Below, piece by piece: positions 13,913 through 27,265 of a stretch of DNA of 64,000 bases. The notes under the pieces were generated by a model. It was not told the DNA's origin, searched no databases, and saw nothing but the letters and a program-made list of their open reading frames with translations. This stretch comes from Chloroflexota bacterium (GTDB taxonomy: Bacteria > Chloroflexota > Anaerolineae > J036 > Brachytrichaceae). The stretch lies in contig JANXLU010000010.1 in assembly GCA_025354985.1 (NCBI GenBank), positions 62,001 to 126,000 on the forward strand, written 5' to 3'. Both the position numbers and the translations under genes were made by a program. Each line of letters begins with the position of its first letter. Positions within the stretch are counted from its first letter, which is position 1.

Positions 13913-15076
13913 ATGTTGGAGGAAGCGGCGTTCCACGATGAATTGGCGCAGGCGCTAAGACACCTGGGAGCGTTGGATGTGCTTGGCAACCTGCCGCTAT
14001 CCAGCAGTATCGCCGGCACGCACGACTCGGCGATTGCCCGGGGTACCGCAACCCGGCAGGTGATTGTCGAGGCCATCGATCGGCTAAAGCCTGCAGGGCC
14101 GATAAATTTGGACAGCCCGGATTGGCGCATACACACCATCCTGCATGAACGCTATGTATTGCATCATTCGCCGGGCCAGCTGGAACGTCAATTAAACCTC
14201 GGAGACCGACAAGTACGGCGGGAACACAAGCGGGCGGTCGCAGTTCTTGCGGCCTTGCTCGCATCGCAGGTCGACCCGAGCACACCGCAAAGCGGTTCAA
14301 CTACGAGCCAGCGTGAATCGGTTCGCGAGGCGGTGCATCGCCTGCAACCCGCACCCCGTTTGTTTGGCCTGCGCGATCTGTTTTCCGATGTGGTCGGGGT
14401 GGCATCTACGGTAACAGGTGACGCCGACGTGCCTGCTTGGGTGACGCATCCACCGGATGTAACCGTTTTTGCGGATCGCGGGATATTGAGTCAGTTGCTG
14501 TTAAAGATGATCTTGCCCCATCAGGGCCCGGGCAACGGCGGTACCCTATTGAGTGCTCACCTTCATGGTGAGGCTGTGCGCCTGAAGGTGTCCGGATCCG
14601 GACTGCAAGCCGAAGGCGTGGACTATCAATTAATGCACATGCTCGGCGAAGCGCTGGGAACCACGTTGGTGATTACACCCGACGGTTCGCTGGCCGAGTT
14701 TGCCCTGCCGGTTGGGGGGCCACTCCATTCGGTGCTCGTGATTGATGATGAACCCATGGCGGTTGAATTGCTGCGAAGCTATTTGGCTGGCACCGAATTT
14801 GACGTTACATTTGAAGTGGCGCCCGAAGCAGCCGTGCAAACCGCGCTTGCCAAGGTGCCGGATGTCATCGTGCTTGACGTCATGATGCCTGCCATGGATG
14901 GCTGGGCGCTGTTGCAACGACTGCGCGCGATCCCGGCCACGCGCGAAGTGCCGATCATTGTTTACTCCATCCTTGATGAATCGTCCCTTGCCGAAGCGCT
15001 GGGCGCCACGCGATTTCTAAGGAAGCCCATCGGCAGGTTGGAATGGCTAAATATTTTGCGAGCTACCATTCGTTGA
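13913..15076 (+). CDS. Response regulator with N-terminal HTH-like region and degenerate ATPase-like region
   Basis: A 387-residue protein. Residues 70-120 (ILHERYVLHHSPGQLERQLN, then LGDRQVRREHKRAVAVL) resemble the sigma-like helix-turn-helix found in Chloroflexi regulators. Residues about 165-270 look like a shrunken HATPase fold without N, G1 or G2 boxes. Residues 278-387 form a complete receiver domain: acidic pair IDDE, phosphoacceptor Asp322 (VLDVMMP), Lys371 (FLRKPI). TATAAT lies 10 nt before the ATG, so the leader is very short. The gene is convergent with a hybrid histidine kinase and overlaps its end by 30 nt; the two may form a pair. It is not a standard regulator, as the receiver is at the C-terminus. 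Confidence 0.78.
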   Translation: MLEEAAFHDELAQALRHLGALDVLGNLPLSSSIAGTHDSAIARGTATRQVIVEAIDRLKPAGPINLDSPDWRIHTILHERYVLHHSPGQLERQLNLGDRQVRREHKRAVAVLAALLASQVDPSTPQSGSTTSQRESVREAVHRLQPAPRLFGLRDLFSDVVGVASTVTGDADVPAWVTHPPDVTVFADRGILSQLLLKMILPHQGPGNGGTLLSAHLHGEAVRLKVSGSGLQAEGVDYQLMHMLGEALGTTLVITPDGSLAEFALPVGGPLHSVLVIDDEPMAVELLRSYLAGTEFDVTFEVAPEAAVQTALAKVPDVIVLDVMMPAMDGWALLQRLRAIPATREVPIIVYSILDESSLAEALGATRFLRKPIGRLEWLNILRATIR

Positions 15077-17266
15077 GCGCACACAGGCGTTAACCATGGA
15101 TTCAAGCATGGTCTCCAATTCAAGTTGGCTCAAATGTCCTGAGCGTAGATACGTGATGTAATCGGTATCGGTCGCGCTCATGGCGGTCGCCAGGTCTTCC
15201 GCGGTCACGGCAATAATGTGGGCCGGCGAAAGGAAACGCAGCTTCACAGCCAGCTCGCGACCCGTAGTATCTGGCAACCCAAAGTCGAGCAAAACGACAT
15301 CCGGTCTAAACACCGGCATGGCCTCAAGCGCGGTTTGGCCATCGCGACGAAACTGAATCTGCCAGCCCGGGTTGATCGCAGACAGCGCGGACTGCAAAAA
15401 TTCGACCATCCCCTCATCGTCATCCACAATCAAGATGCGCTCGATAGAACCCCCCAGGCTTGATAGCGCCCTGGCCAATTGTTCGCGACCGACCGGCTTT
15501 ACCAGGGCGCCGGCAAATGGAGCGGGCAATGGTTCGGCCAGGCGCGTGGGTAGCGAGCACACGATGACCGGCAGACCTGCAAGCTGCCCCAGTGTGGTTG
15601 CATCCGGTCGACGTCCATTTCCAGTCGGCGTGCCCACGCACACCATCGCGGCGGGGAATTGATCCGAGATTTGTTGGGCAAGCCCCTTTTTCTCATCATG
15701 CCATATCAGGTCATAATTTGAAAGACTGGTGGTTACCAGTCGGCGTGCCGAATCATCGGCCTGGATAAGCACACGCATCCGTTTGCGCGCCTCGCGTTCC
15801 AATGCCGGCCACCAGGCATCTTCGGTTTCCTTGCGGTATTGATCGTGGGTCAGAGTTGGGTTGGCTTGAATGGGCAGCGTGAATACAAACCGGCTGCCCG
15901 CGCCTGGCATGCTCTCGGCATAGATGCGCCCGCCATGTTGTTCCACAAGGCGCTTGCTGATCACCAGCCCGAGACCAGACGTGCCCCGACCCTGCTTGAA
16001 TGGGCTGCTATCCGCCTGATGAAACTCCTGAAAGAGCCCGGCCAAATCCGGGGCCGAGATACCTGCGCCGGTATCCTCGACTTCAACCACCATTTCATTT
16101 TCAAGCGCATGAGCGCGCACGGTAACGCCCCCGGCATTGGTAAAACGGGCGGCATTGGTGATCAAATTTAGCAATACCTGGCGAATACGAATCCGATCTA
16201 CGTTCACCTCGGATGAATGCCCCGCCGTGACGACACGCAAATATAGCCCGCGCGCACTAAACAGTTCGCGTGTGATTTCGACCGCTTCCATGATGATTTC
16301 GCTGATGTTGGTCACGGTTTTGTTCAGCGTCATGCGATAGGAATCGATGCGGGCCAAATCCAGCACATCATCAATAAGCTGGGATAGATGCTGCCCGCTT
16401 TTGAACACCTGACTCAGGTGCTGGGATAACCGTGGCGTCCATTGCTGACCGATGTAGACATCCCGCGCATTCACCATCAGGTCAGAAAATCCAATAATCA
16501 TGTTGATCGGGCTGCGCAATTCGTGGCTCACGGCGTTGGCAAACTGGGATTTTTGCAGCCGGGCGGATTCAGCCACCTGTCGCGCCAGAATTAACATTTG
16601 ATTCATGCGCTCCAGGCGTGCGTAAGCCTGATCCAAATCATGACTGCGCACCATCAGTTCCGCGCGATGTTGGCGCGCATCGGCGGCGGCGGCCTGCGCC
16701 TGCTTGTTGCTAAACGAGGACCATCCCAGCGCGGTTAGAAATTGGCGCGTCCCCAGCCACGCCACCACGCTGGTAAACAACAGAAATATCACCGGCGCAC
16801 TGGTTTGGGCCAGGCCGATCTTGTTGATTGTTGCACCCCACGCCAGTCCTGCCAGAGCAAGAAACACCGTAGCGAGCGCCCCTCGCGTGGTAAAAAGCAT
16901 GGAGGCAACAACGACCAGAAGCGAAAAAAAGTATGGCGCAGCCTGTGTCTGGGTAAACACCCATTCCAGCTCGGTGGAAACAAACAGGCAGACCATGAAA
17001 ATCGAGCAGAGCAATTTCTTGGGGAGCGCCCGCAATAGAACCACCACCGAAGCGCTTACTCCCAGCGCCACAGGTGTCAGCCAGCCACAGGCTACGAGAC
17101 CACCCGTATTGCAGGCTGATGCGCGTATCGCCGTAATCCAAGCCAATACACCCACCAACCCCATCAAAGCGCGTAGGAAACTTCCGCGCAGGTCCTCGGC
17201 CTCGTCCAAATCGTATGGGTCAATGCGTGTTTCAGAGGGTGCGATAAACGGAGTTGCGGTGACCAT
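15047..17266 (-). CDS. Hybrid membrane histidine kinase with two receiver-like domains
   Basis: A 739-residue protein from the ATG at 17266. There are several membrane helices (residues about 30-200), then HisKA with phosphoacceptor His248 (AVSHELRSP), and HATPase_c with N box NLITNAARF, G1 DTGAGIS and G2 GTSGLGL. Next comes a pseudo-receiver with no acceptor Asp but a KP dyad (GALVKPVG). The final receiver has Asp661 (LLDFGLPD), but its conserved Lys is missing (TYLRSGHL). I chose this start because TACACT (17278-17273) ends 6 nt upstream, which predicts a leaderless mRNA. An array of 11-bp-spaced repeats lies immediately upstream. Confidence 0.88.
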   Translation of the reverse strand: MVTATPFIAPSETRIDPYDLDEAEDLRGSFLRALMGLVGVLAWITAIRASACNTGGLVACGWLTPVALGVSASVVVLLRALPKKLLCSIFMVCLFVSTELEWVFTQTQAAPYFFSLLVVVASMLFTTRGALATVFLALAGLAWGATINKIGLAQTSAPVIFLLFTSVVAWLGTRQFLTALGWSSFSNKQAQAAAADARQHRAELMVRSHDLDQAYARLERMNQMLILARQVAESARLQKSQFANAVSHELRSPINMIIGFSDLMVNARDVYIGQQWTPRLSQHLSQVFKSGQHLSQLIDDVLDLARIDSYRMTLNKTVTNISEIIMEAVEITRELFSARGLYLRVVTAGHSSEVNVDRIRIRQVLLNLITNAARFTNAGGVTVRAHALENEMVVEVEDTGAGISAPDLAGLFQEFHQADSSPFKQGRGTSGLGLVISKRLVEQHGGRIYAESMPGAGSRFVFTLPIQANPTLTHDQYRKETEDAWWPALEREARKRMRVLIQADDSARRLVTTSLSNYDLIWHDEKKGLAQQISDQFPAAMVCVGTPTGNGRRPDATTLGQLAGLPVIVCSLPTRLAEPLPAPFAGALVKPVGREQLARALSSLGGSIERILIVDDDEGMVEFLQSALSAINPGWQIQFRRDGQTALEAMPVFRPDVVLLDFGLPDTTGRELAVKLRFLSPAHIIAVTAEDLATAMSATDTDYITYLRSGHLSQLELETMLESMVNACVRSTNGSSQNI

Positions 17267-17291
17267 TCTGGCAGTGTAGCCCGAAACGGTT

Positions 17292-17353
17292 TTGTCCCTA
17301 CAACATCCGAAACTTGTCCCATCGATGTCCGGTAAATGTCCGATAAATGTCCG
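17292..17353. promoter_or_regulatory. Array of six 7-bp direct repeats at 11-bp period
   Basis: Units start at 17292 (TTGTCCC), 17303 (ACATCCG, degenerate), 17314 (TTGTCCC), 17325, 17336 and 17347 (ATGTCCG each), always 11 bp apart with 4-bp spacers. This 7+4 arrangement on one face of the helix is that of Pho boxes and other sites of OmpR/PhoB-type winged-helix regulators. The array lies between the divergent hybrid kinase and the sugar-transport genes and could control either. The unit orientation points towards the transporter. Confidence 0.75.
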
Positions 17354-17394
17354 CTTGGAAACCAATCCGGGTCTAAAGTTAACTGGCTTATCGT

Positions 17395-17445: not shown

Positions 17446-18870
17446 ATGCAGAAGATATCAAGAACCCGAATGGCCGGGACTGCCGTGTTTGCAGTAGCCA
17501 TGACGATGGCGGCCTGTGCCGCACCAACCGCGCCACCCGCACAAATCGTGGTTCAAACCGCGGTAGTGACAAGCGTGGTTGAAAAGGTTGTCAACAAAGA
17601 GGTTAACAAGGAAGTGGTGGTCACGGCCACGCCCGCGCCGGTCAAGTCGACCACGGACGAAAAAGCCGCCATTACGGTATGGATCGATGACACGCGCAAG
17701 CCATTGGTTGAAGCTTACAAGAAAAAGTATCCGGAAAAGGCGGCTTTGATCAAGGAAGAAGTGGTTGATCGCGGTACGTTTCCGGCCAAAGTTCTGCTCT
17801 TTAACAACACCGGTAAGGGCTGGCCCGATGTTGTATTTGCCGAACCCAACCTGGTGGCCCAGGTTGCAGATGCCTCGCGTGACTTTCCATTGGACCTGAC
17901 CGATCTTGTCCCGGCTGGAATCAAGGACCAATTTGCGCCAGGCGCCCTTGCGCCGTGCACGTTTGCCGGCAAGTTACTGTGCTTGCGAAACGACATTGCC
18001 CAGAATATGATTTGGTTTAACAAGCCGCTATTCGATCAGTTCAAATACAAGGTTCCCACAACCTGGGCGGAATATGAACAGTTGGGTATGGACCTGGCCA
18101 AGGATCACCCCGGCTATATCATCGGCGCGGTGGACGAAGCCACCCTGGTTTACGTCTTCCTATGGGGCAGCCGCTGTCCTTTGGGTCAGGCGCGCGATGC
18201 AACCACAATTTACATCAACCTAAACGACCCCAAGTGCACTCGTGCGATCACGATGGTTGACAACCTGATCAAGGTGGGGGCCTTGGCAAAAGTGGGGAAT
18301 TTTGATCCGGCGGTCGCCAAGGTTGCGGCTGATAACAAGATCATGATGATGATCGGCCCATCCTGGTTTGGCGAATATGTGTTTGGTGGCAAACCCGAGA
18401 GCACCTACTACAAGAAGGCAGAGGGCCAACTGGATACCGCAGTACCGCTAAAGTGGGACGGCGAGGATAAGAACTACACCGGATTCTGGGGTGGTTCAGC
18501 TTGGTCCGTTTCCCGCCACACCGTAAATCCAAAACTTGCAGTTGATTTCGCAATCTTCGCATCCACAGGTGTGGAATATCACGGGACCGGTCCAACCTAT
18601 CCCGCGTATGCCCCAGCCGCAACCGAATGGCGCAAGACGGTAAAGGGCAATGCGCTGTATGCCCAAGACCCCTATCCTGTCATGGAGAAGGCAGCTGCGG
18701 TGATGGATCCACTGATCACCTCGGTGCGCTATGACCTGACGAGTCCATTCAAGGATCTGGCTGTGCCGGCAATAACCAAGGGTCAAACAGTGGCATCGGT
18801 GGTGCCCGGTCTACAAAAAGCGCTGGTGGGCCTTGCCGAAGCACAGGGTTACACCGTAGTTACAAAATAG
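17446..18870 (+). CDS. Carbohydrate ABC transporter substrate-binding lipoprotein
   Basis: A 474-residue extracellular solute-binding protein of the family-1 type. It has a lipoprotein signal with lipobox MAAC (lipidated Cys24) and a Pro/Thr/Val-rich tether (residues 25-75). The binding fold includes AAITVWIDDTRKPLVEAY, GWPDVVFAEPN, MIWFNKPLFDQF, VPTTWAEYEQLG and GFWGGSAWSVSRH. These match sugar-binding proteins partnered with MalF/MalG-like permeases. GGGAGG at a good distance before the ATG is a strong ribosome binding site. It is the first gene of an importer operon; the ligand is a sugar or polyol, not determinable here. Confidence 0.92.
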   Translation: MQKISRTRMAGTAVFAVAMTMAACAAPTAPPAQIVVQTAVVTSVVEKVVNKEVNKEVVVTATPAPVKSTTDEKAAITVWIDDTRKPLVEAYKKKYPEKAALIKEEVVDRGTFPAKVLLFNNTGKGWPDVVFAEPNLVAQVADASRDFPLDLTDLVPAGIKDQFAPGALAPCTFAGKLLCLRNDIAQNMIWFNKPLFDQFKYKVPTTWAEYEQLGMDLAKDHPGYIIGAVDEATLVYVFLWGSRCPLGQARDATTIYINLNDPKCTRAITMVDNLIKVGALAKVGNFDPAVAKVAADNKIMMMIGPSWFGEYVFGGKPESTYYKKAEGQLDTAVPLKWDGEDKNYTGFWGGSAWSVSRHTVNPKLAVDFAIFASTGVEYHGTGPTYPAYAPAATEWRKTVKGNALYAQDPYPVMEKAAAVMDPLITSVRYDLTSPFKDLAVPAITKGQTVASVVPGLQKALVGLAEAQGYTVVTK

Positions 18871-18879
18871 CGACGGATT

Positions 18880-18950
18880 CGCCCGCCTCTGCAACATCAT
18901 TCTCTGATTCGTGTGGGGCGGGCGGTTGTATACGAACAACCGTCCGCTCC
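18880..18950 (+). promoter_or_regulatory. Mutually exclusive hairpins between binding-protein and permease genes
   Basis: GGGGCGGGCGGTTGT (18915-18929) pairs with ACAACCGTCCGCTCC (18936-18950) over 15 bp, with two G-U pairs and a 6-nt loop. The same left arm (GGCGGGCG, 18917-18924) is also perfectly complementary to CGCCCGCC at 18880-18887, so two alternative structures compete. Such elements after a binding-protein gene usually protect its mRNA or reduce expression of the permeases; attenuation is also possible. Confidence 0.6.
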
Positions 18951-18961
18951 AACCAAATGCC

Positions 18962-19891
18962 GTGACCGTATCCAAGCTTGATCAACCGTTGAGTACGCCC
19001 TTGACTGGTGCATATCGCAAACGCAGTGGCCTGTCATTGCGGGCGGCGCACCTATTCTTGCTTCCGTATGTGATTTTGATGGTGTTATTTGGCATTTTGC
19101 CGGGTGCATATGCATTGGTGATTAGCTTTGCCAAGTTTGTGGGAGGGCGTCCACAGTATTTTTTGGCAGGAATATCAAACTACGTTACCGCCTATTCAGA
19201 TTTTCGATTTCTAACTTCAATTGGTAACATCCTGAGTTTTCTGCTGATCTCGATCCCCGTTGGTGTGGTCGGGGTCCTGTTTATTAGCCTTTGGCTGCAC
19301 GTTAAACCTGGTCGCGTTGCCACCGCCTTCCGCACACTGTTTTTCATTCCAGGCGCCTTTGCAGGACCCGCGCTGGTGTTGTTGGCGTTTTTTATGTTTG
19401 CCCCAACCACCAGCCCGTTTGGATTCTTACTAAGCGCCATGGGTTTTCAAAACAGCGCCGAGGTAACCTTAAAAGACAATTACCCAGTATTGTTTACAGT
19501 GCTCGGGTTCTTCGCCGGGGCGGGTGGCTGGGTGGCCATATTTTATGGCGCCCTCGATGGAATCTCCAGCGAGGTCATGGAAGCTGCCATTATGGACGGC
19601 TGCAACAAATTGGAGTCCGCATATTATGTCAAATTACCACTCATCCGACCTTATATCGCCTATATGGTTATTTTGACGGTAGCGGGAAACGTGCAACTGT
19701 TTGCCGAACCACAACTATTTGGGGCCAAGTATTGGTCACCCAACCAGCTCGGGTATGCGTTTGCGTTTGAGATCGGAAATTTCGGCGCGTCTGCCGCCAT
19801 CTCACTACTTATGGTTTTTGTCGGTTTGATTGCAGCCACAATCATCATCAAGTTTTCCGGCTTCTATCAGACCGACGCCACAGCCAGCTAG
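18962..19891 (+). CDS. ABC sugar transporter permease, MalF-like
   Basis: A 309-residue membrane protein with about six helices and the EAA loop that contacts the ATPase (SSEVMEAAIMDGCNKLESAYYVKLPLI in positions about 215-240, quoted in part: MEAAIMDGCNKLE). It forms the channel with the next permease. The open frame begins with GTG at 18911, but that codon lies at the edge of the long hairpin, so I place the start at GTG 18962 (MTVSKLDQPL). No Shine-Dalgarno site is seen at either. Confidence 0.9.
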   Translation: MTVSKLDQPLSTPLTGAYRKRSGLSLRAAHLFLLPYVILMVLFGILPGAYALVISFAKFVGGRPQYFLAGISNYVTAYSDFRFLTSIGNILSFLLISIPVGVVGVLFISLWLHVKPGRVATAFRTLFFIPGAFAGPALVLLAFFMFAPTTSPFGFLLSAMGFQNSAEVTLKDNYPVLFTVLGFFAGAGGWVAIFYGALDGISSEVMEAAIMDGCNKLESAYYVKLPLIRPYIAYMVILTVAGNVQLFAEPQLFGAKYWSPNQLGYAFAFEIGNFGASAAISLLMVFVGLIAATIIIKFSGFYQTDATAS

Positions 19892-19932
19892 CGAGCAAAC
19901 TGCGAACAGATTACCAAAGGAATAGACACTCT

Positions 19933-20847
19933 GTGAATAGATCGATAACCTCTCAAGGAAGCACCCCAAAGCGCAAGAGCGAATATAGCGCCAGCTGGCT
20001 GTTATGGGTGAGTGTGTTGGTCTTACTGGCGGTTTATTTTGGCGCCCCAATCCTGTGGTTACTGGCTGCCCCGACCAAGCTGGACGGTGAACTGCTATCC
20101 CTGCCTTCACTTGCAATTGGCGACGTGCGCAATTACGCCCAGGCCTGGGCGAACTTGCTCACCTACGGCAAAGGCGTGGTGTTATTGTGGGCACAAAACT
20201 CGGCAATGTACACCATTTCGTCGGTTTTCCTTAGCGTCATAGTGTCTGTTCCAGCCGGATACGCTTTGGCGACCTCACAGTTTGCCGGGCGGCGACTAAT
20301 CATGACGCTCACCCTCATCACGATGATCCTGCCAGGTTCGGCCATGGTGCTACCGCTCTTTCTTGAGATGAACCAGTTTGGGCTGATCGACACGCCCTGG
20401 GCGGTCATCGTGCCCGCGATGTTCTATCCGTTTGGCGTATATCTGGCCTATGTACATTTCTCAACGGCCATTCCAAAAGATCTGCTGTCGGCCGGCCGCG
20501 TGGATGGTTGCAATGAGTGGCAATTGTTTCGATATGTGGGGCTGCCGCTGGCGCGGACCCTGTTTGCGCTCCTCTCGTTCCTCAGCTTTACGTCCAACTG
20601 GAATAACTACTTTTTGCCATTCGTCATGCTGAATGACAGCAAGTTGTTCAGCCTGCCGGTCGGTCTGCAGGTGATGGCCACCAGCACGCCTATGCTCAAC
20701 CCTACGTTTGCCGCTGAAAACGCCGTGGTACGTCGTCCGGAGGCAGCCCTGATTGTTCTAATGCTCGTGGTCCCGGTGATCATTATTTTCCTGGTTGCCC
20801 AGCGATACATCGTGCGGAGTGCCCTGTCCGGTTCGCTCAAGGACTAA
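19933..20847 (+). CDS. ABC sugar transporter permease, MalG-like
   Basis: A 304-residue membrane permease with six predicted helices and the EAA loop IPKDLLSAGRVDGCNEW. It begins with GTG at 19933, with AAAGGA about 13 nt upstream. It completes the importer encoded with the binding lipoprotein and the MalF-like permease. No ATP-binding subunit is encoded in this locus, so a shared MsmK-type ATPase elsewhere in the genome must drive it. Confidence 0.92.
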   Translation: MNRSITSQGSTPKRKSEYSASWLLWVSVLVLLAVYFGAPILWLLAAPTKLDGELLSLPSLAIGDVRNYAQAWANLLTYGKGVVLLWAQNSAMYTISSVFLSVIVSVPAGYALATSQFAGRRLIMTLTLITMILPGSAMVLPLFLEMNQFGLIDTPWAVIVPAMFYPFGVYLAYVHFSTAIPKDLLSAGRVDGCNEWQLFRYVGLPLARTLFALLSFLSFTSNWNNYFLPFVMLNDSKLFSLPVGLQVMATSTPMLNPTFAAENAVVRRPEAALIVLMLVVPVIIIFLVAQRYIVRSALSGSLKD

Positions 20848-20851
20848 ATGT

Positions 20852-20918
20852 CTGACAAGCACTTATCAAAGCTCTGACAACCAATTGTCAAGTTTTTGTC
20901 ATGACACGCGCCTAGAAT
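20852..20918 (+). promoter_or_regulatory. Pho-box-like promoter of the alpha-2-macroglobulin gene
   Basis: Five 7-bp units start exactly every 11 bp. CTGACAA at 20852, TTATCAA at 20863 and CTGACAA at 20874 are in reverse orientation; TTGTCAA at 20885 and TTGTCAT at 20896 are forward. The two forward units closely match the E. coli Pho box (two CTGTCAT-like units with a 4-bp spacer). A -10 element TAGAAT (20913-20918) follows 10 bp after the last unit, with no -35 consensus, just as in PhoB-dependent promoters. Confidence 0.78.
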
Positions 20919-20971
20919 GTCGTTACGATGAGGTGCGTGAGCGCCCATCGTGCGCTTAGGAGTGTTGTTTC

Positions 20972-23900
20972 ATGACGAAAATTGACCAAAAGTCGAAGCG
21001 CATTGGCGCCGTTTGGCTTTCGCTTGCCTTGGTGCTGTCCGCCTGCACCCGTGTATCCCCACCCACGCCATCGGGACCAATATCTGGTCCTACACCCGGT
21101 GGCAGCATCGGTGGTGTACTGTCTACCCAGCCGCCACCACGACCGACTGCTGCGCCGCCGCCCGCTATTGCGACAGCGCTACCAAAACTGGTGCTGCCAT
21201 TCCAACCAGTAGCCAACGATGCCTCCGCACCGCGGATCATCGCCGCTTCGCCCGAGTTGGGCGAACGCGTGGAACCTGACGCGGAGATACGCTTTACCTT
21301 TGACCGGGCCATGAATCAGACCAGCGTGCTGGCAGCACTGGTCACCCAACCCAAAACCGAGGGCGCGCTCACCTGGAGCGATGCTCGAACAGCTGTATTC
21401 AAACCAACCACACCGTTGCAACGCGGGGCCACGATCGACGTGGGCATTCAGCAAAGCGCCCAGGACACCTCGGGCGCCACCTTGCGTGAGCCGTTCCAGA
21501 TTCGGGTGGTCGCGCAAGGTGGTCTTGAAGTGCTGCAGACCATCCCGTCCAAAGATGCAAAGGATGTGCTGCCTGATACTCTGATCACCGTGATGTTTAA
21601 CCGCCCGGTAGTGGCCCTGGCCACCTTGAGCGGACGCACCCCGGATGATGGCAAGCAAACCGTTTCGTTTGACCCGCTGATCGATGGCGCGTATGAGTGG
21701 TTGAACACCAGTGTCCTGGTCATACGCCCCAAGGCTCCCCTGCCCGGTGGCACGGTCTATACCGGTCGGGTTCTGGCGGGGACCAAGGATACCGATGGCG
21801 TGCCCATGGCCGGCGACTATGTTTGGACATTTTCAACAGATGCACCCACAGTGATAACGGTCAGCCCCCAACCTGCAACCACGTCCGGTAGCAGCCCTGG
21901 GCGCGGTCTGGCCCGGGTGGACACACCTGTCGTGCTGTCGTTTAATCAAAACATTGACACCGCAACCGCACAATCTAGTTTTACGCTGTTGGATGCAAAG
22001 GGTGGCGCGGTGGCCGGTTCCTTTGCGGTGGTAAGCAATACGCTCACCTTCACGCCCGGTGCCCGGCTGGCCTACGATACCCAATATTCCATCCAGCTTC
22101 AGCCCGGCGTCAAGAGCATCAGTGGTGGTGTGGGCGGCACAACTGGATTTAGGAGCACATTCACCACCTATCCTCTGCCAAAAATCACAAGCACGACGCC
22201 CGCCACCGGTGCGCGCGATGTACAACCATACAACGGCTTTCAAATTGCATTTAATGCCCCGATCGACCCGGACACGGTCATGCCCCACGTCACATTTTCA
22301 CCGGCTGTTTCGGTCACGCGCATGTATACCTACTTTGACGCGTCAACCAACTCCTTCTTTATCAACTATCCCGCCGAGCCCGCGACTGACTATGTCGTGA
22401 CTATCGCTCCCGGGATCCGCGATGGGCTGGGCAACACGGTGGGGGATGCGACAACCGTGAAATTCCGCACGGGCAACCTGCCTCCTAACGCACGACTAAG
22501 CATCCCCGGAAATGTGGTGCTGTTTAACGCCAACAATCCGGCCCGCGCCGTTGCGTTGAGCAACAATGTAAACAGTATTGATCTGGAACTCTACAAATTT
22601 GATATCACGACCACGGATGGCAATTTATATGGTTCACCAGACAAAGCGCCACCGGGCAACAGGGTCCGAAGCTGGCGCGTGAACGTAGCTGGAGGCGACC
22701 TCAACAAACAAAAGCGCACGGTGATCACGTTTGCCGAAGGCGAGGGACGTCTTGCTCCGGGGCTGTATCAACTGCGACTGACGTCTTCAGATTTTCCCGC
22801 CAACGAGAAGCCATACCGCACTCAGACTGTTACGTTGATCGTAAGCGATTTGAACCTGGTTCTAAAGGGGGAACCCGCGGGCGCATTGATTTGGGCCACT
22901 GACCTGACCACGGGTGAGCCAATCAACGGGTTGGCGATCAAAGTATATGCAACCCGGTATGATGGGGGCGCGCCAGTGCTGGTTGATTTGGGTGCAGGAA
23001 GCACCGATGCAACCGGCGTGGCCACTGTCGGGTATAAGCGTCCTCTCAATGCCGGCAATCTCTTTGCCGTGTCACAAGGTCGCTTCGCCCTGGTCAACGA
23101 GGCCTTTGGCGGCGGCACCCCGTTCCCTGTGTTTCGTGGCGGAGTTGCACGCCCGGTCATACAAGGTCGCGGTGGCGCGACTGAAACGAGTCTGACCCAG
23201 GACGGCCTGCGCGGATTTATCTATACCGACCGCGGCATCTATCGCCCGGGTCAGAAGGTGTTTGTCAAGAGTTGGTTGCGCACCGAAGATGACGTAAAGT
23301 TTGGTCTCGCCAGCGGTGCAGCCTCAATTCAGATTAGCAACGCACGCGGCGAGAGTATCCTGAACAAGCAGGTGACACTCGATAGCTTGGGCGGCGCCGA
23401 TACCGAGCTCGACCTACCCGCCAGCGCACCCTTGGGGAACTATCGTGTTTCGCTTGTGATGCCGGGCGGTCCGGCGGTGGCCGACACCGGTTTCCAGGTT
23501 GCGGCGTATCGTCCGCCCGAGTATGAGGTTACGGTGACGCCCAACCTGAGCCAAACCGTCCGCGGTAGCTCGTTGGATGTGACGTCAAGCGCGCAGTATC
23601 TTAGCGGCGGCGGTCTTGGCAACGTGCCGGTCAGTTGGAACGTGGTTGCCAGCCGGGCCGGCTTCAACCCGCCGCAGCTTGACAAATTTACGTTTGAAGA
23701 CAATGAATCTCCGTGGGGCTACATTCGATTCGGTGGTCCCTTCCCCGGAGGTGCGCAAACCAATCGACCGATTGCCACCGGGACCGGCACCACGGACGGA
23801 GCGGGAAAGTTTTACTTCACGGTGCCCGTGAGCTCCGAATTACGATTGCCTGGTACTGATCCAACGAATAGTGGCAGGGATCCGGTCTACAGCGGCACGG

Positions 23901-26900
23901 TGCAATTTAGCGTTGAGTCCAGCGTCAGCGGCGCTGACAACCAAAGCATCTCCGGGCGCGCCCAGGTAACCGTGCACCCTGCGGCATACTATGTCGGCGT
24001 CGCAGTGCCAAGCCCTATTATCCAGGCTGGAACAGTGGCCACAGCTGAGCTGGTTGCGGTTAATTGGGATGGGCGTCGACAATCCGGCAGGCAACTTGAA
24101 ATAGCCATTGTTCGCAGGGAGTGGGTCAGCACCTATGACGAGGCCAGCAATCGCTGGAGCAGTGCAGCCAAGGATGAGTTGATCAGCACCGTCACGCCGA
24201 CGACCAACGAGCGCGGCGAGGCCACTGCAACCTTTGTGCCGGCCACTTCAGGCAGTTATCGCGTGGTAGCACGCATCAAAGATGAAAGCGGCAAAATACA
24301 ACAAAGCAGCCGCACAATCTGGGTCAGTGGACCTGACTATGTGCCCTGGTTTCGCGCCGCGGAGAATACGATCAACCTTATCAGTGATAAGACCAGCTAT
24401 GCCCCCGGCGAAACCGCGCAAATATTGATCCCTTCCCCGTTTGCCGGAGCACACTACGCGCTGGTGACCATCGAGCGTGGACACATCCTAAAGCATGAAG
24501 TCATCAAACTGACCACCAACTCCTTTGTTTACAATCTTCAAATCGGACCCGAACACGCGCCAAACGTATTCGTAAGCGTGGCGCTGTTCAAGGGTGCTGA
24601 CGGAACCGCGCCACCGGCTGCGCAATTGGGGACGCTTGAATTGGAAGTGGCGCCCGTTGCACAAAAATTGGCGGTTACCTTGGTGCCGTCTGCCAAGTTG
24701 GTGCAACCCGGACAGACTGTCACTTATACCCTGACGGTACTGGATTCGGCAGGGGCACCGGTTCAGGGTTCATTTGCCCTGGATCTGGTTGACAAAGGTA
24801 TTCTCAATTTGCGCCCGCGTTCAACTAATGCCATCCTGACCGGCTTCTACGGTCGGCGCGAATCGCAGGTTCAAACCGCTAATTTGCTAAACATGCTGGC
24901 CCGGGTCGTCGAAGATGTGGGTGGGCTTGGCGGCGGACCGGCGGAAGCTCAGGATGCGGCGGTGCTAACCACACGTTCGGCAGGTGCGGCACCACCAATT
25001 GCACCGGCTGCCGCTGCACCATCCGGGGTCGCCCGTGCCAAGAACGGCGTTGATGCTGGCAGCCAGGCCGACGAACCGGCATTGCGTGAAAACTTCGCAG
25101 ATACCGGATTCTGGAGCCCAACCCTCAACACCGACGCCGCGGGCAAGGCAATCGTCCAGCTAAAGCTGCCGGATAACCTCACCACCTGGGTGTTGCGCGC
25201 AGTGGGTCTGGACGCCGCCACCCGGGTGGGTGAGGGCTTGGTCGATGTGCAGGTTAGCAAGCCGCTACTCATTCGCCCGGTCACCCCGCGATTCCTGGTT
25301 GTGGGTGATGTGGTCGAGCTCAGCGCAATCGTCAACAACAACACCGATTCCACGCAGGTGACGGATGTATCACTAAAACAAAGTAGCGGATTGAGCCTGA
25401 CCTCGCCCGTCACTACGTCGGTCAACGTGGCCGCGAACGGCGAGGCGTTGGCAAAGTGGACCGCTCTTGTCCTGGATGCGCCGCAGGTCGACGTAATATT
25501 CGAAGTCCGCGGTGCCGCCGGTAGTGATGCATCCAGACCCCGCCTGAGCACCGCGCCAGGCGGCGGAATCAAGGTTTCCAAGTATTCCTCCCAAGAAACT
25601 GTGGGAACCGCCGGTGTGCTCGACGGCAGTGGCAGTCGCACGGAGCTCGTAGTACTACCGCCGAACATGGATGCAACCCAGGGAACGCTATCCGTCCGCC
25701 TCGAACCCAGCCTGGTTGCTTCGATTCAATCCGGCCTGAACTATCTGGATGCCTATCCTTATCGAAGCGCTGAATCGGTCATGTCCAGCTTCCTGGCCAA
25801 CGTGCTCAGCTTTGCGCTGTTGCGCGAGTTTGGTCAGGCTGACAGCGGATTGGAAAGCCAACTCCGCGCAAGCACTAGTGATGCTCTGAGCCTGCTCTAT
25901 AGCCTACAAAACTCCGATGGAGGCTGGGGCTGGTACAAGGAACGGGTCAGCAACCCGCACACCACGCTGTATGTGTTGTTTGGAATGCAACGGGCCAAAA
26001 ATGCCGGTTTTGAGGTCCGCCCGGACGTGATCCAGCGCGCGCTGAACTATGCTCAGTCGTCCTTGCGCAACACCGCCGACCTGCGTCAGACCTTTGAGCT
26101 GAATCAACAGGCCTATGCGCTGATGGTGCTGGCCGAAGGTGGCAAGCCGGACAATAAACGCACCGGAGAACTCTACGAGAAGCGTGACCTTCTCGGCGTC
26201 CACGGCAAGGCGCTCCTCGCGCTTAGCCTGGGTCGTGCCAGCAAAACAGATGCGCGCATCAAGACGCTTCTTGCGGACATAAACGGCAGAGTGGTGCAAA
26301 GTGCGACAGGGTCGCATTGGGAAGAATCCCAGCCGGACGTTTGGGCCATGAATAGCGATACGCGCAGCACCGCCCTGGTCATCCTGGCGCATGCGCTGTA
26401 TGACAGCACCAACGCCATAAGCACCAATGCCGTGCGCTGGTTGATGACCGAGCGCACCGCCGAGGGCCACTGGCGCAGCACCTACGAAACCAGCTGGGTG
26501 ATGATCGCGCTAACGGAATGGGTGCGCGCGACCGGCGAGCTAAAGGCGGACTTTGACTTTGGCGCAACGTTGAACGACAAGGAACTTGCAAAAGCACGTG
26601 CCACAACCGAGACCATCAAGCGCGGCTCGGTTACAAGTCTGCCCCTTGCGACCTTGATAAAGGACACTGCCAACAAACTCGTGGTCACCCGCGGAGAAGG
26701 ACCTGGACGGCTGTATTACACCGCTCACCTGCGTGCGTTCCTGCCGGTGCCCGGCGTAAAGTCCGTGGATCGCGGTATTAATGTGCAGCGGCGATACGTA
26801 AGTGCAAGCTGCACCGACGGGGCCAAATGCCCAAGCATCACCAGCGCCAAGCTCGGTGAGGATGTGCGAGCCGAGCTCACCCTGATCGCGCCATCCAACC

Positions 26901-27265
26901 TGAGCTATGTGCAGGTTGAAGACTTCCTGCCGGCCGGCGCGGAGTTGATCGACAGTAGTCTGGCCACAGCCAGCCAACTGGCGGCAAAGCCGGGACTCGC
27001 ACCTGGCGGCGCGCCCGGCGGCCCGGCATTGTCATCGTATCGACCGTATTACTTTTGGTGGAACTGGTATACCCGTAGCGAACTCAAAGACGACCGAATC
27101 GCGCTGTTTGCCGGATACCTTCCAAAGGGCGTCTATTCCTATAGCTACACAATGCGCGCAACCAGTGCCGGATCATTCAACGTGATCCCAACCCACGCCG
27201 AGGAGCAATACTTCCCTGAAGTATTTGGCCGGGGTGATGGCGCGTTGTTTACCGTTACGCGCTAA
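20972..27265 (+). CDS. Giant alpha-2-macroglobulin-like lipoprotein without thioester
   Basis: A 2,097-residue surface lipoprotein (lipobox LSAC, Cys25). Residues about 70-520 hold four SbsA/Big_5-type Ig-like domains (repeated patterns like IRFTFDRAM and ITVMFNRPV). An MG2 domain follows near residue 748 (YTDRGIYRPGQKVFVKSW), then the A2M domain near 1379 (FWSPTLNTDAAGKA) and an alpha/alpha TED-like domain. In bacterial homologues that domain starts with YPYGCTEQ; here it reads YPYRSAES (1595-1602), so both thioester residues are lost. Family role: trapping attacking proteases at the cell surface. AGGAG precedes the ATG. No pbpC gene is adjacent. Confidence 0.93.
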   Translation: MTKIDQKSKRIGAVWLSLALVLSACTRVSPPTPSGPISGPTPGGSIGGVLSTQPPPRPTAAPPPAIATALPKLVLPFQPVANDASAPRIIAASPELGERVEPDAEIRFTFDRAMNQTSVLAALVTQPKTEGALTWSDARTAVFKPTTPLQRGATIDVGIQQSAQDTSGATLREPFQIRVVAQGGLEVLQTIPSKDAKDVLPDTLITVMFNRPVVALATLSGRTPDDGKQTVSFDPLIDGAYEWLNTSVLVIRPKAPLPGGTVYTGRVLAGTKDTDGVPMAGDYVWTFSTDAPTVITVSPQPATTSGSSPGRGLARVDTPVVLSFNQNIDTATAQSSFTLLDAKGGAVAGSFAVVSNTLTFTPGARLAYDTQYSIQLQPGVKSISGGVGGTTGFRSTFTTYPLPKITSTTPATGARDVQPYNGFQIAFNAPIDPDTVMPHVTFSPAVSVTRMYTYFDASTNSFFINYPAEPATDYVVTIAPGIRDGLGNTVGDATTVKFRTGNLPPNARLSIPGNVVLFNANNPARAVALSNNVNSIDLELYKFDITTTDGNLYGSPDKAPPGNRVRSWRVNVAGGDLNKQKRTVITFAEGEGRLAPGLYQLRLTSSDFPANEKPYRTQTVTLIVSDLNLVLKGEPAGALIWATDLTTGEPINGLAIKVYATRYDGGAPVLVDLGAGSTDATGVATVGYKRPLNAGNLFAVSQGRFALVNEAFGGGTPFPVFRGGVARPVIQGRGGATETSLTQDGLRGFIYTDRGIYRPGQKVFVKSWLRTEDDVKFGLASGAASIQISNARGESILNKQVTLDSLGGADTELDLPASAPLGNYRVSLVMPGGPAVADTGFQVAAYRPPEYEVTVTPNLSQTVRGSSLDVTSSAQYLSGGGLGNVPVSWNVVASRAGFNPPQLDKFTFEDNESPWGYIRFGGPFPGGAQTNRPIATGTGTTDGAGKFYFTVPVSSELRLPGTDPTNSGRDPVYSGTVQFSVESSVSGADNQSISGRAQVTVHPAAYYVGVAVPSPIIQAGTVATAELVAVNWDGRRQSGRQLEIAIVRREWVSTYDEASNRWSSAAKDELISTVTPTTNERGEATATFVPATSGSYRVVARIKDESGKIQQSSRTIWVSGPDYVPWFRAAENTINLISDKTSYAPGETAQILIPSPFAGAHYALVTIERGHILKHEVIKLTTNSFVYNLQIGPEHAPNVFVSVALFKGADGTAPPAAQLGTLELEVAPVAQKLAVTLVPSAKLVQPGQTVTYTLTVLDSAGAPVQGSFALDLVDKGILNLRPRSTNAILTGFYGRRESQVQTANLLNMLARVVEDVGGLGGGPAEAQDAAVLTTRSAGAAPPIAPAAAAPSGVARAKNGVDAGSQADEPALRENFADTGFWSPTLNTDAAGKAIVQLKLPDNLTTWVLRAVGLDAATRVGEGLVDVQVSKPLLIRPVTPRFLVVGDVVELSAIVNNNTDSTQVTDVSLKQSSGLSLTSPVTTSVNVAANGEALAKWTALVLDAPQVDVIFEVRGAAGSDASRPRLSTAPGGGIKVSKYSSQETVGTAGVLDGSGSRTELVVLPPNMDATQGTLSVRLEPSLVASIQSGLNYLDAYPYRSAESVMSSFLANVLSFALLREFGQADSGLESQLRASTSDALSLLYSLQNSDGGWGWYKERVSNPHTTLYVLFGMQRAKNAGFEVRPDVIQRALNYAQSSLRNTADLRQTFELNQQAYALMVLAEGGKPDNKRTGELYEKRDLLGVHGKALLALSLGRASKTDARIKTLLADINGRVVQSATGSHWEESQPDVWAMNSDTRSTALVILAHALYDSTNAISTNAVRWLMTERTAEGHWRSTYETSWVMIALTEWVRATGELKADFDFGATLNDKELAKARATTETIKRGSVTSLPLATLIKDTANKLVVTRGEGPGRLYYTAHLRAFLPVPGVKSVDRGINVQRRYVSASCTDGAKCPSITSAKLGEDVRAELTLIAPSNLSYVQVEDFLPAGAELIDSSLATASQLAAKPGLAPGGAPGGPALSSYRPYYFWWNWYTRSELKDDRIALFAGYLPKGVYSYSYTMRATSAGSFNVIPTHAEEQYFPEVFGRGDGALFTVTR

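Follow-up and report, generated by a model that had tools for sequence, protein, structure and literature searches.

The repeat at positions 20852-20902 of the window (the whole stretch of 64,000 nucleotides analysed here), which precedes a gene for an alpha-2-macroglobulin (A2M) lipoprotein, is very probably a real regulatory site, common to other surface-protein genes in related genomes. We consider it likely (with a probability of roughly 0.72) that this array is an operator bound by an OmpR/PhoB-family response regulator, different from the one linked to the pst genes, that controls surface proteins including enzyme inhibitors. It is probably not the phosphate-starvation signal that it resembles. 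The window comes from a genome with a 4.19-Mb assembly in 98 contigs (G000), which forms with G001, G002 and G003 the four-genome genus g1; the named relatives are uncultured Anaerolineae (Candidatus Roseilinea mizusawaensis, Thermoflexales bacterium, AQU-02 and REEB501), and the lineage is known here only from metagenome-assembled genomes. Reading of the letters, partly rechecked, gave five 7-bp units with an 11-bp period from 20852, followed by promoter-like elements and the A2M gene:

17446-20847, forward strand: upstream ABC transporter genes, encoding a lipoprotein and two permease-like proteins, with a Pfam match for the last alone
20852-20858, forward strand: unit 1, CTGACAA, of ambiguous orientation (score 3.7 forward, 8.5 reversed), differing from the forward unit mainly in the middle base
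20863-20869, forward strand: unit 2, TTATCAA, forward (12.6 forward, 1.0 reversed)
20874-20880, forward strand: unit 3, CTGACAA, of ambiguous orientation (3.7 forward, 8.5 reversed)
20885-20891, forward strand: unit 4, TTGTCAA, forward
20896-20902, forward strand: unit 5, TTGTCAT, forward, overlapping the putative -35 by its two final bases
20901-20906, forward strand: putative -35, ATGACA, part of the only promoter-like site found by a consensus scan of 20800-21000
20913-20918, forward strand: alternative -10, TAGAAT, 21 bp after unit 4 and 10 bp after unit 5
20924-20929, forward strand: preferred -10, TACGAT, separated from unit 5 by 21 bp and from ATGACA by 17 bp
20958-20962, forward strand: Shine-Dalgarno-like AGGAG (letters checked)
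20972-27265, forward strand: A2M-type lipoprotein of 2097 aa, with a signal ending in LVLSAC and Big_5, MG2, bait-region, A2M, TED and bMG10 domains

The five units and TAGAAT were thus confirmed at the places given for them in a preliminary description of this DNA. The ABC transporter genes end 4 bp before unit 1. Further upstream, at 13913-17365, the window encodes a response-regulator-like protein, in which no DNA-binding domain was recognised, and a hybrid histidine kinase.

The array was scored with a unit matrix trained on 15 boxes from genes other than A2M. These boxes were hand-picked from pattern matches, so that their own members score high by construction, and the independent tests of the matrix are the A2M promoters and the DUF4349 promoters of G004 and G005, and no others. 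With either orientation allowed, the five-unit array reached 52.3 bits (42.6 bits when read forward only) and was the highest-scoring place in the whole window, 60 first-order Markov shuffles of which reached 14.8 at most. The preliminary description would have been refuted by an equally frequent pattern in shuffled intergenic DNA, and the shuffles of the window came nowhere near the array. With other periods (8-10 and 12-16) the best five-unit score anywhere in the window was 6.3. The dimer of units 4 and 5 scored 22.7 upstream of A2M, compared with no more than 14.6 in 215 upstream regions not chosen for a box (median 0.6, 99% at 14.2).

The preliminary description had read units 1 to 3 as reversed and proposed two oppositely directed stacks of one regulator. 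Units 1 and 3 do score better when reversed, but unit 2, in the middle of the supposed reverse stack, is clearly forward, its sequence TTATCAA recurring as the proximal unit at many related promoters, and the box is directed toward the gene in the 20 promoters that were compared. The idea of two stacks was therefore abandoned. As the unit comes close to a palindrome (TTGWCAA), in which TTGTCAA read on the other strand gives TTGACAA, its direction hangs on the middle base pair alone, and the simpler reading is a single forward stack of five subsites, two of them weak. A palindrome of the CusR/CopR type was also considered for units 3-4 and dropped, given that the units continue in register on both sides. 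The array has the 7-bp direct repeats and 4-bp spacers of a Pho box and also the form of an OmpR/PhoB-family operator, with head-to-tail 11-bp subsites beside the -35 region, units 1 and 3 being ambiguous in direction.

The position of the array relative to the promoter was compared in 20 boxed promoters anchored on their last unit, in which the -10 had played no part in choosing the boxes. In 15 of them the distance from the last unit to the start of a TANNNT sequence was exactly 21 bp, a count that includes orthologous promoters and hence non-independent cases, with all five gene groups contributing; the distance was 22 bp in a further two, the A2M promoters of G001 and G002, and offsets other than 21 bp reached two at most. 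Many of these promoters have a poor hexamer (AAGNNN) at the place of the -35. In the E. coli Pho box the last unit lies about 10 bp from the -10, and the preliminary description had seen this spacing in TAGAAT, with no -35. The 10-bp spacing from unit 5 is indeed present, but TAGAAT is also 21 bp from unit 4, which is the common distance. The absence of a -35 holds only if TAGAAT is the -10, and ATGACA was found at 17 bp from TACGAT. Since TAGAAT is placed 21 bp from unit 4, there may possibly be two A2M promoters, one repeat apart, with TACGAT and TAGAAT as their -10 elements.

Conservation of the array upstream of A2M turned out to be a matter of the genus rather than of the family. An 11-bp array was strong in G002 (CTGTCAT-TTGTTAT-TTATCAA, dimer score 16.9) and weak in G001 (TTGTTGG-TTGTCAA, 9.5), while in G003, a genome 78% complete, an A2M match was not found. 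In the sister genus g2, the A2M gene of G005 is preceded by a weak array (CTGTCAG-TGATCAG-GTGTCAG; 7.8, or 11.9 for three units). A clear array was not seen in 7 of the 11 A2M upstream regions examined in the family, a set from which loci L015-L017 were left out. Absence from orthologs in close relatives, which would have refuted the preliminary description, was thus not what was seen within the genus, but the array did not hold up across the family. The stretches for G005 A2M and for the DUF4349 genes of G004, G005, G008 and G010 had been cut around an already-seen box, with no set distance to the start codon.

Beyond A2M, a box of the form TTGTCAA-n4-TTRTCAA precedes a set of exported-protein genes in the genus. 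The pattern YTGTCAW-n4-YTRTCAW had 25 exact matches in the four genomes and its backward version, a control that is not a composition-matched shuffle, had none; with one mismatch allowed, the matches were 80, 79, 108 and 84 against 32, 20, 24 and 27 backward. According to contexts read by eye, 12 of the 25 exact matches stand in forward orientation ahead of a gene whose product has a signal peptide or lipobox, and the other 13 lie inside ORFs, point away, are 243 bp from an apparently cytoplasmic gene or precede an unannotated ORF. The pattern by itself is therefore unspecific. Exact boxes were found before the following genes:

A2M and an unannotated lipoprotein: G000
DUF4349 lipoprotein: G001, G002, G003
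YfbK/VWA lipoprotein: G002, G003
I42 chagasin-type peptidase inhibitor: G001, G003
META lipoprotein: G001
META/MliC (lysozyme-inhibitor) lipoprotein: G002, and its G003 ortholog, a gene incomplete in the assembly

Boxes with at least one departure precede DUF4349 and YfbK in G000 and A2M and I42 in G002, so that the YfbK/VWA box is present in G000, G002 and G003 and the secreted I42 inhibitor has a box at all three orthologs (G001-G003). Conservation was broadest for DUF4349, boxed at 8 of 29 loci in 26 genomes, namely in all four g1 genomes, in both g2 genomes and at two g3 loci. No I42 and no META match was obtained in G000, and the inhibitor theme therefore rests on the genus and not on the genome of the window alone. 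A second I42 lipoprotein and a META cluster (C27/C403) had no box at the threshold used and are counter-examples. Three other occurrences were recorded along the way. The sequence TTGTCAAgtttTTGTCAA lies reversed before a DUF2828/DUF7788 gene in G001:C250 (L104) and G003:C12 (L107), the Pfam assignment being for the G001 protein only; in G002:C351 (L127) and G003:C62 (L128) a strong box, again reversed, precedes the gene for a solute-binding lipoprotein by about 50 bp; and in a g5 genome, at G012:C1:6475-6525 (L102, L111, L119), CTGTCATCGCA is repeated in tandem at 11 bp in at least five units.

The likeness to a Pho box raises the possibility of phosphate control, in which a phosphate regulator of the PhoB/PhoP type would activate A2M under phosphate starvation. 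The resemblance is considerable: the E. coli consensus CTGTCAT is matched by the TTGTCAA/TTGTCAT units with their 7+4 spacing, and both consist of near-identical units, head to tail, upstream of a -10, with TAGAAT 10 bp after unit 5. Moreover, a review of the Pho regulon describes some confirmed Pho boxes at genes without obvious phosphate control (PMC4415409). The same text gives the box as CTGTCAT in E. coli and GTTCACC in Streptomyces and states that it varies with the species (PMC4415409), which makes the pst promoters the right yardstick. The pstC gene was found in all four members of the genus, and phoU in three. With the box matrix, six pst-locus upstream regions from G000-G003 scored 7.0 at most, that is, at background, versus 22.7 at A2M; the array's box was absent from the pst promoter regions of all four genomes, a place where the preliminary description had suggested looking for it. 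Several of these regions carry instead TTAAC-type repeats at an 11-bp period (seen by eye, without statistics): before pstC, G001-G003 have TTAACACAAATTTAAC(T/C)C, then TATAAC, and before pstB, G000 has CTTAATCTTTACTTAACC, then TATTCT, both read by eye. These repeats (L076:5850-5902; L077, L078, L079), placed 8-9 bp from the -10, are the probable true Pho box of the genus. In addition, the distance common to the related promoters is 21 bp and the other boxed genes are not phosphate genes. Phosphate control was rejected as the leading explanation after the pst promoter regions of the four genomes had been read, and we regard it as quite improbable. The proposal that a Pho-box-like array drives A2M stands as regards a non-chance array of 7+4, OmpR/PhoB form in the A2M promoter region, and is not supported as regards phosphate. 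If our reading is true, even an apparently perfect Pho box does not, in a remote phylum, necessarily signify phosphate control.

Still less probable is that the array represents -35-like repeats (TTGACA/TTGTCA) with no regulator involved. The units do resemble TTGACA, and ATGACA overlaps unit 5 and pairs with TACGAT; however, five units in strict 11-bp register, and the recurrence of two or three units with this period at other promoters, both orthologous and unrelated and often with AAGNNN at the place of the -35, argue against it. Assuming a regulator, the choice is wide, as G000 has 20 Trans_reg_C matches above the cut-off. None of the response-regulator genes scanned (those of G000 and part of those of G001, G002 and G003, some further ones being covered by the scan for box plus -10 alone) has the box upstream, so autoregulation names no regulator. 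Reciprocal-best orthologs in all four genus members were obtained for L173 (the pst-linked one), L174, L177, L178, L179 and L181, a list of at least six, since the filter passed over some proteins such as the true orthologs of L172. Among these, L178 stands out, its gene being followed in G000 (C20; L284:1575-5322) by those for an exported triple-PDZ protein and a histidine kinase, an operon that suggests envelope sensing; its orthologs are 60-61% identical and its best relative among solved structures in the PDB is RegX3. On the other side, its own gene has no box upstream, at least five other regulators are equally conserved and the PDZ-kinase neighbourhood was seen only in G000. The pst-linked regulator is likewise close to MtrA and RegX3, so that the RegX3 likeness is a lead only, and we think it unlikely that this protein is the one sought. 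The pst-linked regulator is encoded at:

L076:10586-11254: pst-linked response regulator

A weaker candidate is the BaeR-like two-component pair beside the DUF4349 gene in G002 and G003, where kinase and regulator converge on the boxed gene, and which has a 67% identical ortholog in G000 (C4:131643). It was disfavoured, and its assignment appears doubtful at best: G001 (91% complete) has boxes but no close ortholog (best 45-48%), and the promoter of the pair's own operon shows, by eye, TTCACAA-type and not TTGTCAA repeats. Such 11-bp repeats lie upstream of this operon in G003, with similar ones in G000 (L195:7430-7800; L175:2800-3231; by eye), and are perhaps the own box of the BaeR-like regulator.

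Our preferred reading is that 20852-20902 is a five-subsite operator, in which an OmpR/PhoB-family regulator distinct from the pst-linked one would bind 7-bp units that recur, on the same helix face, with the 11-bp period. The subsites, arranged head to tail toward the gene, would be filled by the phosphorylated regulator; the last one abuts or overlaps the -35, and the protein bound there would touch RNA polymerase, the -35 of the promoter being weak. Its most likely effect would be to activate the A2M lipoprotein gene, with transcription of the sigma-70 type. Head-to-tail filling and contact with the polymerase are modelled here on what the review describes for PhoB (PMC4415409). Acting through this one box, at a constant 21 bp from the -10, the regulator would control a limited number of exported proteins, within the genus and to some extent in two neighbouring ones, comprising A2M, the DUF4349 and YfbK/VWA lipoproteins, the chagasin-type peptidase inhibitor and the META or META+MliC lipoproteins. 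The array itself, its conservation, the shared box, the fixed geometry and the absence from pst are observed; that a winged-helix response regulator binds the array and that binding activates transcription we infer. The signal may be envelope damage or attack by foreign enzymes, and the boxed products, judging from their family names, would act as inhibitors. A more specific version, tentative and somewhat against the odds, is a response of these Chloroflexota dedicated to enzymatic attack: damage done by foreign peptidases or lysozyme-like enzymes would be sensed by a two-component system of the OmpR type, which, with one box and the 21-bp geometry, brings up together the surface inhibitors (thioester-less A2M, chagasin-type peptidase inhibitor, MliC-type lysozyme inhibitor). 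The DUF4349 and YfbK/VWA lipoproteins would be part of this response.

The closest parallel in function is found in E. coli, where the Rcs system controls Ivy and MliC and a signalling pathway leads from cell-wall stress to exported lysozyme inhibitors including MliC (PMC10139938). Here the phylum is another one, the box is a repeat of the OmpR/PhoB type, and peptidase inhibitors (A2M and chagasin type) are added. The literature searched on a bacterial A2M regulon, on MliC in connection with protease inhibitors and a response regulator, and on macroglobulin in Chloroflexi yielded nothing on such regulation. The Rcs system uses an RcsB site, not a repeat box of the OmpR/PhoB kind. If our reading is true, a sequence-defined regulon groups peptidase and lysozyme inhibitors with DUF4349 and YfbK lipoproteins of little-known role. 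This would also suggest that A2Ms outside host-associated bacteria defend against neighbours or predators, an idea that becomes testable.

As for the A2M protein itself, its family membership is supported by MG2, bait-region, A2M and TED matches above Pfam cut-offs. MagD belongs to the thioester-less type of A2M. The window protein has YPYRSAES at the thioester position, without the CXEQ motif, and thus resembles this second type, as a lipoprotein of a member of the Chloroflexota. It shares the A2M, MG2, bait-region and TED domains with the A2Ms of E. coli (PMC4498604) and P. aeruginosa (MagD, PMC5764988), which are described as protease inhibitors. Several A2M orthologs of the family also lack a CXEQ thioester; the G012 protein keeps YPYECIEQ, the sole CIEQ among the other family proteins with a locatable motif, in a comparison by a simple pattern that gave nothing at several A2M loci. 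A second, distant A2M gene is present in G000 (C51:42172-48153), with 33-39% identity to the window protein.
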